DNA of 64,000 bases from a bacterium (GTDB taxonomy: Bacteria > Cyanobacteriota > Vampirovibrionia > Gastranaerophilales > JAILCC01): positions 1 to 64,000 of the forward strand of contig JAILCC010000019.1 of NCBI GenBank assembly GCA_024680555.1, read 5' to 3'. The notes under the pieces are model-generated. The model saw nothing but the letters and a program-made list of their open reading frames with translations. It ran no database searches and had not been told where the DNA came from. Below are positions 4,816 through 60,654 of the stretch, in pieces (within the stretch, counting starts at the first letter, position 1; every line of letters starts with the position of its first letter). Made by a program: the position numbers and the translations under genes.

Positions 4816-4850
4816 AAAAAAAGACCCTTTCGGGTCTCTCTCCAAGATTC
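4816..4850 (-). terminator. Terminator copy 1 of a duplicated tRNA-Ser-type trailer
   Basis: The hairpin GACCC-TTTC-GGGTC is followed on the minus strand by seven T residues. The same roughly 35-base block recurs at 4922-4956, each time next to a fragment resembling a tRNA-Ser 3' end. It is a good rho-independent terminator for minus-strand transcription. Confidence 0.7.
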
Positions 4851-4920
4851 TCAGAAGGGGGACTTCCCGAACTCGTGAGGGAACTGCGGCTTGTCCGCAT
4901 GAGGTTCGAATCCCCCAATA
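4850..4920 (-). repeat. tRNA-Ser-derived hairpin cassette
   Basis: This block lies between two copies of the same terminator. Closing arms GGGGGA (4857-4862) and TCCCCC (4911-4916) enclose two further hairpins: TTCCC/GGGAA with a 10-base loop and TGCGG/CCGCA with a 5-base loop. The right arm contains GGTTCGAATCCCCC, which is identical to the T-loop and 3' T-stem of the neighbouring tRNA-Ser but in inverted orientation. On the minus strand the block ends in a CCCCCTTCTGAG sequence resembling the tRNA-Ser 3' end. The architecture parallels the cassettes downstream of tRNA-Pro at 48.7 kb. Function is unknown; it may be a decayed tRNA duplication or a structured RNA. Confidence 0.6.
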
Positions 4921-4921
4921 C

Positions 4922-4956
4922 AAAAAAAGACCCTTTCGGGTCTCTCTCCAAGATTC
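4922..4956 (-). terminator. Terminator copy 2 of the duplicated trailer
   Basis: This is the same hairpin and T-run as at 4816-4850. It directly follows, on the minus strand, a CCCCCCTTCTCCGAATC remnant (4955-4970) that looks like the 3' end of a lost tRNA-Ser copy. Confidence 0.7.
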
Positions 4957-4990
4957 GGAGAAGGGGGGATTTTTCTTGAATTTTGCTCCA

Positions 4991-5049
4991 CGATTGCAGA
5001 TGCCTCCTACCCCCTCAATTATTCGGGGTTGTCGTCGGCACTGCAATCG
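4991..5049. repeat. Large imperfect inverted repeat in the tRNA-Ser spacer
   Basis: The arms CGATTGCAG (4991-4999) and CTGCAATCG (5041-5049) are perfectly complementary. The pairing continues inward with TGCC/GGCA and CCCC/GGGG. A smaller hairpin, TGGCAC-TTT-GTGCCA, follows near 5061-5075. No gene was recognised between 4508 and 5171; apart from the promoter, the duplicated trailers and these hairpins, nothing else can be assigned. Confidence 0.6.
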
Positions 5050-5132
5050 TCACTTCGAGTTTGGCACTTTGTGCCATCACTCTACGCAAAATTCGCCGAA
5101 CCCCAAATTAGGATTCTCGTCCTCCCCTTAAT

Positions 5133-5170
5133 ATTAAATCCCGACTATCTGATGATAATCGGGATTTAAT
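5133..5170 (-). terminator. Perfect hairpin immediately 3' of tRNA-Ser
   Basis: A 12-base perfect stem, ATTAAATCCCGA (5133-5144) with TCGGGATTTAAT (5159-5170), starts one base beyond the tRNA discriminator. There is no clear T-run, so it may act in 3'-end processing as well as termination. Confidence 0.6.
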
Positions 5171-5171
5171 T

Positions 5172-5261
5172 CGGAGAAAGGGGGATTCGAACCCCCGGTA
5201 CAGGTTATCCCCATACAACTTCTTAGCAGGAAGCCGCTTTCAGCCACTCAGCCACTTCTCC
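5172..5261 (-). tRNA. tRNA-Ser(GCU)
   Basis: The minus-strand sequence starts GGAGAAGTGGCTGAGTGG and ends in the T-arm GGTTCGAATCCCCC, acceptor strand TTTCTCC and discriminator G. The acceptor pairs over seven positions with one G-U. The anticodon loop reads CTGCTAA, giving GCU. The long variable arm and 90-base length are typical of class II serine tRNAs. CCA is not encoded. Confidence 0.95.
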
Positions 5262-5303
5262 GTACCCTCTTAGGATACCATAAAATTCTTTTTGTGCAAA
5301 TAT

Positions 5304-48660: not shown

Positions 48661-48730
48661 TGGTCGGGATGACAGGACTAGGCGAACAACGCGGAGCCGC
48701 ATACAGATTAAAGAGTTCAAATCCTGTCAT
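48661..48730 (-). repeat. tRNA-Pro-derived cassette A
   Basis: Read on the minus strand, this 70-base block starts ATGACAGGATTTGAAC, an inverted copy of the 3' part of tRNA-Pro. It has a core with ATGCGG-CT-CCGCG, and ends TCCTGTCATCCCGACCA, identical to the tRNA-Pro 3' end including CCA. Arms ATGACAGGA and TCCTGTCAT pair perfectly. It is nearly identical to cassette B. Confidence 0.8.
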
Positions 48731-48763: not shown

Positions 48764-48832
48764 TGGTCGGGATGACAGGACTAGGCGAGCAACGCGGAGC
48801 CGCATACGATTCAAGAGTTCAAATCCTGTCAT
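48764..48832 (-). repeat. tRNA-Pro-derived cassette B
   Basis: This 69-base block has the same layout as cassette A, differing by a few bases in the core (GCTCGCC versus GTTCGCC). It lies directly after the tRNA-Pro terminator. The inverted arm could pair with the 3' 16 bases of tRNA-Pro itself in a readthrough transcript. Confidence 0.8.
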
Positions 48833-48866: not shown

Positions 48867-48943
48867 TGGTCGGGATGACAGGATTTGAACCTGCGACCCC
48901 CTCGTCCCAAGCGAGGTGCGCTACCAAGCTGCGCCACATCCCG
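48867..48943 (-). tRNA. tRNA-Pro(UGG)
   Basis: The minus strand begins CGGGATGTGGCGCAGCTTGG. The anticodon loop CTTGGGA gives anticodon UGG; the T-loop is GGTTCAAATCC and the end is CATCCCG-A-CCA with encoded CCA. The acceptor pairs perfectly. Length 77 bases. The 5' C1 is usual for proline tRNAs. Confidence 0.96.
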
Positions 48944-48982: not shown

Positions 48983-49063
48983 TGGTCGGAATTTGCGAGG
49001 TGCTACCTCTCACGAACGATACTCAATCGTTCGTTCGGCAGAGTCAAGCTGCGCTACATCCCG
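48983..49063 (-). other. tRNA-Pro-derived cloverleaf-like element with encoded CCA
   Basis: This 81-base segment begins CGGGATGTAGCGCAGCTTG, almost the tRNA-Pro 5' end, and ends ATTCCG-A-CCA. The ends pair over six positions (one G-U) like an acceptor stem. Inside are three self-complementary hairpins: GCAG/CTGC, ACGAACGAT/ATCGTTCGT with loop TGAGT, and GAGGT/ACCTC with loop AGC. There is no standard anticodon loop or T-loop. The segment GGTAGC-ACCTCGC also comes from tRNA-Pro, so the element looks like a tRNA with a 36-base insertion in the D-loop and loss of most of the 3' half. It could be a decayed tRNA or a tRNA-like RNA. Confidence 0.55.
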
Positions 49064-60496: not shown

Positions 60497-60654
60497 GCGG
60501 ATTTCGGCAAGGCTGACTGACCGAAGGGAAGGAATGCCGTCTCAGTGAGGAGAGTTATGAAGTGAAGTTTTTACAAAGTAAAAACGGAATGAAATTCAAA
60601 CTCTACGAACTGCCGATAATCCAAGAAGCGGATTTCGGCAATGCTAACTGACCG
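60497..60654. repeat. Pair of 27-base direct repeats
   Basis: GCGGATTTCGGCAAGGCTGA... at 60497-60523 recurs at 60628-60654 with two base differences. A shorter relative (GATTTCGGCAGACTGA) is present near 34253. No gene was seen between 60342 and 60696, which separates two convergent genes; apart from the terminator and this repeat nothing else is assigned. Confidence 0.6.

Follow-up and report, generated by a model that had tools for sequence, protein, structure and literature searches.

Behind a tRNA-Ser gene in the 64,000 nt analysed here (the window), the gene's own 3' end and terminator recur around a short block. This raises the question whether the block is a local accident or belongs to a system which acts at many tRNA genes, and how its parts come to resemble the neighbouring tRNA. 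The first-pass annotation had described at 4816-4970 duplicated terminators, GGGGGA...TCCCCC arms, an inverted T-arm and a hairpin, and had proposed one mechanism by which parts of the adjacent tRNA, whichever this is, are copied.

Two cassettes follow tRNA-Ser(GCT)

The anchor gene, tRNA-Ser(GCT), is located on the minus strand at 5171..5262 (ARAGORN; Rfam RF00005, 54.7 bits); the cut point discussed below, C56|R57 of the T loop, is within 5180-5193. All features of the locus are on the minus strand and in this direction their order is tRNA-Ser(GCT), terminator, first cassette, 3'-end copy, second terminator, the block, a decayed copy and a third terminator. Every part described earlier at 4816-4970 was present. 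The block is, however, one of two cassettes 3' of the gene: a second, different unit at 4955-5170, between tRNA-Ser and the block (body 4971-5097), had been overlooked.

In this first unit the proximal terminator hairpin of tRNA-Ser (5133..5170; 17-nt inverted repeat, 94%) is followed by a left module at 5098..5132, which consists of an inverted T-arm (GGACGAGAATCC) and a direct copy of the 5' strand of the T-arm (T5'), TTGGGGTTC. The body at 4971..5097 (GGCGAATTTTGCG...GCAAAATTCAAGAAAA) has palindromic ends of a family common to other tRNAs. It is followed by the first tRNA-Ser 3'-end copy (ATCCCCCCTTCTCCG, 4955..4970), which starts at the T loop and matches the gene in 15/16 positions, and by the first cassette terminator (GACCCGAAAGGGTC T7) with trailer at 4922..4954, part of a direct repeat.

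The second unit has as inverted T-arm the inverted GGTTCGAATCCCCC (4903..4916), which is 100% complementary over 14 nt to the T-arm of tRNA-Ser at 5180-5193. Next comes a class A body with the hairpin TGCGG-CTTGT-CCGCA at 4885..4899, which covaries with TGCAG/CTGC in relatives, and a T5'-like element, GAGTTC, at 4869..4874 (compare CTCAGGTTC in Pro-GGG). The second 3'-end copy at 4850..4862 (TCCCCCTTCTGAG, seen by direct repeats) is decayed. The second cassette terminator with trailer (4816..4849, direct repeat) is 96% identical to the first. Taken together, the tRNA-Ser 3' end and terminator are duplicated as two 46-nt copies, 4816-4861 and 4922-4967, with 96% identity and 106 nt apart; the GGGGGA...TCCCCC arms correspond to 4857-4862 and 4911-4916. 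Folded alone as a single sequence the block was unremarkable (z about -1.8). The evidence for it is comparative.

The same plan at tRNA-Pro(TGG)

The second array in the window is anchored by tRNA-Pro(TGG) on the minus strand (48867..48943, ARAGORN). Two cassettes follow downstream on the same strand with a spacing of 103 nt. The first, at 48764..48832, comprises an inverted T-arm (48817-48832), a body and a 3'-end copy (48764-48780). The second, at 48661..48730, has its inverted T-arm at 48715-48730, then a body and a 3'-end copy at 48661-48677; its terminator is decayed. Inverted GTTCAAATCCTGTCAT (16 nt, 100%) is present in both. The parts have the same order at tRNA-Ser and tRNA-Pro and the arms are identical to the local tRNA, as had been proposed from these two loci; the survey below identified one system at many tRNAs.

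On the 5' side of tRNA-Pro, at 48985-49063, we observed a tRNA-Pro remnant (CAAGCTGCGCTACATCCCG repeat) broken by TACCTCTCACGAACGATACTCAATCGTTCGTTCGGCAGAGTC. A body much like this interruption closes part of a tmRNA array in another genome (G055, L247 about 1180-1215).

Cassettes at other tRNA and tmRNA genes

The last 18 nt of each tRNA were sought in the 500 nt downstream, and the counts were reviewed by eye. In the window's genome (G000), with 30 tRNA matches, an own 3'-end copy was found 79-330 nt downstream of 12/29 tRNA genes (or 13, if a weak case at Val is counted); this count leaves out one match which is a neighbouring tRNA gene and takes in one 13/18 case with a recognised body. Positive were Ser-GCT, Ser-GGA, Lys-TTT, two Met, Pro, Gly-GCC, Leu-CAA, Leu-GAG, Gln, Glu-CTC and Glu-TTC. 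The copies matched in 13-18 of 18 positions versus a shuffle maximum of 11-14. Of the same family, G002 (99% complete) had such copies at 14-15 of 33 tRNAs, i.e. 13 clear and one or two weaker cases, and G003 (97% complete) at 0/35; two flagged matches in G003 were true neighbour tRNA genes. Presence and absence thus differ among relatives. Further units were detected in G001, G010, G018, G033, G045, G048, G050, G056, G058 and probably G017, with a partial survey in G014 (8 genes) and G018 (11 genes).

The target is not restricted to tRNAs. In G055 the array behind a tmRNA gene contains four or more 3'-end copies. tmRNA genes are the other classic target of islands. Two or more body types occur in the G055 array (L247 1-2300), and another copy is located about 1 kb past its first cluster.

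In G002, near-identical units stand two or three in a row behind Arg-TCT, Lys-TTT, Met, Phe, Asp and Pro-GGG. N runs in the Gly-TCC and Ala-GGC arrays of this genome (L152, L154) are assembly gaps within tandem units. Because assemblies collapse repeats, and G000 is 87% complete, array lengths are lower bounds.

A fixed cut point and arms that match the local tRNA

In 36/36 units from at least ten genomes the identity with the tRNA starts at C56|R57 of the T loop (TTC|RA), with an ambiguity of at most three letters per unit. From there the 3'-end copy spans the 3' strand of the T-stem and the acceptor strand and runs into trailer or terminator; in young arrays it extends through the terminator. 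Past the terminator the units continue with the inverted T-arm and, in most cases, a hairpin; a direct T5' copy ending in TTC, a structured variable body and the 3'-end copy come next. Some units, notably those of classes B, C and D, have a weak or missing T5' copy or inverted T-arm. The closing stem, in which the inverted T-arm pairs with the 3'-end copy, is strong in class A units and weak in some others.

The first-pass annotation had the arms follow the local tRNA, and this held beyond chance. Among 36 cassettes the T5' copy matched its own tRNA better than other tRNAs (z 5.3; 0/5000 permutations reached the observed sum), as did the inverted T-arm (permutation z 4.1). Position 57 tracks the tRNA in class C: CAAGC-AA-GTCC after tRNA-Ile and CAAGC-GA-GTCTC after tRNA-Ala. 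Two other candidate features were dropped. An inverted complete tRNA gene within cassettes was abandoned as the alignments were not reliable past the T-arm; a conserved GAGAA in the inverted T-arm was too weak (9/38 versus 3.4 in shuffles with a maximum of 9, and 16/154 in controls).

Several body classes

A universal GCGG..CCGCAT core, as had been expected beside each tRNA, is not supported. It belongs to one body class, A, which occurs at Ser-GCT, Ser-GGA and Pro-TGG in G000 and at Met, Pro-GGG and, with changed letters, Phe in G002. The bodies at other tRNAs are of a very different kind: class B at Met, Asp and Leu-CAA, class C at Ile, Ala and Leu-GAG, and class D at Arg-TCT and Lys-TTT. 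A large palindromic family, RGCGRATTTYGSC...AATYCAAGA, is found at Leu, Gly, Asp, His, Ser and tmRNA. Absence of the core beside other tRNAs, which the first-pass annotation had named as telling against its proposal, was observed for GCGG..CCGCAT, but not for the architecture around it.

In class A the arms and hairpin vary on both sides in 4/14 pairs. In the palindromic family the ends covary as a stem: in 13 cleaned pairs of ends, 60/78 pairs versus 47.7 +/- 2.5 with right ends permuted, and 0/10000 permutations reached this value.

Members of one body family are also located 3' of protein-gene terminators, e.g. at 60497..60626 on the plus strand, where the GCGGATTTCGGC...GCCGATAATCCAAGA body stands alone behind a T-run, with no adjoining tRNA. 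Such palindromic repeats of 125-131 nt abut terminator-like T-runs of protein genes away from tRNAs, sometimes in tandem (window 60497-60626; L096 972-1228; L097 793-932). Another recurrent sequence (TTTTTCAGGACAGT...TTGGTCGGAAGT) is located downstream near several tRNAs (L012, L042, L051, L063) and resembles a different MITE family.

Gain of a unit at tRNA-Asp

The congeners G050 and G058 have a common unit at tRNA-Asp, 97% identical over 253 nt. In G058 there is one extra unit, proximal to the shared one and exactly between GTTC and GAGCC. Because its body differs from that of the shared unit and because it is placed exactly at the T loop, the extra unit was acquired at the T loop and did not arise by duplication of the local one.

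How the cassettes may arise

On balance, and with some reserve, we consider the cassettes to be RtT-like, non-coding, T-loop-targeted units which restore the tRNA they enter. The fixed cut point, the restored tRNA, the displaced 3' end, the tmRNA target and the unit difference at tRNA-Asp together argue for T-loop insertion. Short non-coding units would enter tRNA or tmRNA genes between C56 and R57. The unit would read tRNA 3' part (R57 to discriminator or CCA), trailer/terminator, inverted T-arm, hairpin, T5' copy (TTC) and body. Its leading tRNA 3' part would replace the lost end so that the tRNA is functional after insertion, and the old 3' end would shift downstream and mark the far side of the unit. 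Tandem arrays may result from repeated insertion or from unequal exchange between units. The arms would match the local tRNA for two reasons: the tRNA stays functional only if the 3' end of the unit fits, and adjacent copies become homogenised. The unit presumably moves as one piece, either as a small circle or as a recombined segment, and candidate recombinases are the Xer pair of the host or an integrase which passing islands would supply in trans.

Several points count against the insertion reading. For mechanical reasons, double-stranded recombination is difficult with circles of 80-330 bp, and neither a circle nor an excision event was observed. One body class is found at tRNAs with different 3' ends, so that simple site-specific integration needs an extra step. 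Further, a dedicated recombinase was not found in the array-rich G002, which has only two tyrosine recombinases (PF00589), both apparently Xer-like by length and sequence. The cassette-free G003 has the same number, and one was found in G000 (87% complete).

The covariation of closing stem and hairpins and the terminators at the unit ends also speak for an account in which structured RNAs came first. RtT-like RNAs would be co-transcribed with the tRNA, freed by tRNA processing and kept for a putative RNA function. The arrays would then be due to unequal recombination, and body classes would spread by homologous exchange at the shared T-loop sequence. We regard this as unlikely but a real possibility: the presence of cassettes is erratic (0/35 tRNAs in G003), bodies are wholly different between tRNAs of one genome, distal units at Pro and Ser are decayed, and one body family is also located at terminators which are not beside tRNAs.

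The original proposal that pieces of the neighbouring tRNA are copied accurately describes the outcome. Active copying is one candidate cause of it; T-loop insertion of a unit which already carries the 3' end of the tRNA would, together with selection and gene conversion, lead to the same result. In its explicit form, copy-in would template the arms from the target tRNA at each insertion, so that a donor body becomes flanked by newly written copies of the tRNA 3' end and of the inverted T-arm, either by DNA template switching or by priming on the tRNA or its T-loop-cut 3' fragment. One body class with different, locally exact arms at different tRNAs speaks for this, as does the fact that direct and inverted copies both stop at the T loop. 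We nevertheless consider copying, by any of these routes, quite improbable. Tandem units share terminators too, which selection and gene conversion explain. Reverse transcriptase (PF00078) is absent from G000, G002 and G055, and is present in G050 and G058; the Y1 HUH transposase (PF01797) expected for IS200/IS605 or REP/RAYT elements is absent from G000, a genome 87% complete. Even more remote appears an integron-like process in which an integron-type integrase would build arrays at the tRNA from folded single-stranded, attC-like hairpins. It would accommodate heterogeneous members at one end-site, as at the G055 tmRNA, and long imperfect palindromic bodies with covarying ends. However, the boundary is TTC|RA and not G|TTRRRY, 0 cassettes contain a gene, and G002 has no extra tyrosine recombinase; we consider this reading highly improbable.

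Comparison with known systems

With integron arrays the cassettes have in common an array at one end-site and palindromic recombination elements. They differ in having no recognised attC core (GTTRRRY), no apparent IntI, with no extra tyrosine recombinase in G002, and no cassette genes. The GCGGATTTCGGC...AATCCAAGA body, a 125-131 nt imperfect palindrome which also occurs after protein-gene terminators, resembles MITE/REP repeats; at tRNAs, in contrast, the T5' half of the local T-arm flanks it on one side and the T3' half on the other. A search for the class A pattern in 84,980 genomes, from whose records the window's own lineage is possibly absent, and in IMG/VR yielded nine genome stretches and one viral stretch. 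These were treated as chance, for the genome matches because no tRNA was near any of the nine loci.

The likeness to tRNA/tmRNA islands is closer. Such islands restore the target and leave a displaced fragment (Islander, PMC4383910). The cassettes show the same combination of an intact target and a displaced 3' fragment in the same orientation: the carried 3' end restores the target and the displaced 3' fragment marks the far end. Shared with islands are also the crossover in the T loop, the tandem arrays and the favoured tmRNA target. In contrast, the cassettes are 80-330 bp, free of genes and of an integrase, and too short to encode one. Islander rejects candidates below 2 kb or without integrase (PMC4383910); therefore, cassettes of this size escape it. 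This exposes a blind spot, as island finders drop anything which is shorter than 2 kb or integrase-free. The ssrA islands of Dehalococcoides consist of tandem units, each marked by a 20-bp repeat of the ssrA 3' end; they are of kilobase size, carry genes, have an integration module in 16/31 cases, employ the serine recombinase DsiB and use only ssrA (PMC3146451). Many tandem units with a 3'-end repeat are thus common to both, whereas the cassettes described here are small and gene-free. In G010, integrase genes adjoin tRNA-Met, tRNA-Asp, tRNA-Gly and tRNA-Ala (L220, L224, L225, L226), and tRNA-Asp there also has an integrase-free cassette ending in CAAGACA.

The closest relatives in plan are the RtT repeats, a feature of E. 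coli described decades ago (Bosl and Kersten 1991, cited in PMC4986893). We found no account of their origin in the open-access literature; an earlier general description of such cassettes may exist elsewhere. At the E. coli tyrT locus each RtT unit contains a 3'-end copy from the T loop, an inverted T-arm (15/18), a T5' copy (8/9) and a body; one tRNA-Tyr gene has a tandem pair of units and the other a single one. In the consensus structure of Rfam RF00391, the inverted T-arm forms a stem with the 3'-end copy. RtT units and cassettes are both located 3' of a tRNA gene, in tandem where the gene has more than one, with the same parts in the same order, the same T-loop start point, a direct T5' copy ending in GTTC within the unit and a hairpin body. 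A 20-nt stretch, TCGAGCGA(A/T)AGCGAG(A/C)GAAC, is common to RtT and three tRNA-Leu cassettes (0/100 shuffles each with an equal score).

The differences concern sequence and distribution. The RF00391 covariance model, which holds tRNA-Tyr arms, had no match to the cassettes tested at E <= 0.5 or 5. For this reason we call the cassettes RtT-like: they have the same plan and are not members of RF00391. No RtT-like patterns were found in IMG/VR, and in the loci scanned no Rfam family other than tRNA/tmRNA was above gathering. In the E. coli genome examined, RtT is limited to two tRNA-Tyr genes at one locus, whereas the cassettes occur at about half of the tRNA genes and, in a relative, at tmRNA, with arms of their own tRNA and several body classes.

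It is unlikely, yet conceivable, that cassettes and RtT together form an unrecognised class of self-propagating, gene-free elements which would insert at C56|R57, derive their arms anew from the target and be moved by host machinery that is not known to do this. The shared plan in itself gives a class in which a putative T-loop-cutting enzyme, unit circulation and a possible RNA effect on tRNA supply can be studied. The same plan at about half of the tRNA genes in two members of a lineage unrelated to E. coli, plus tmRNA, and with presence and absence among relatives, suggests that RtT, an oddity of a single locus, belongs to a kind of element which is widespread.
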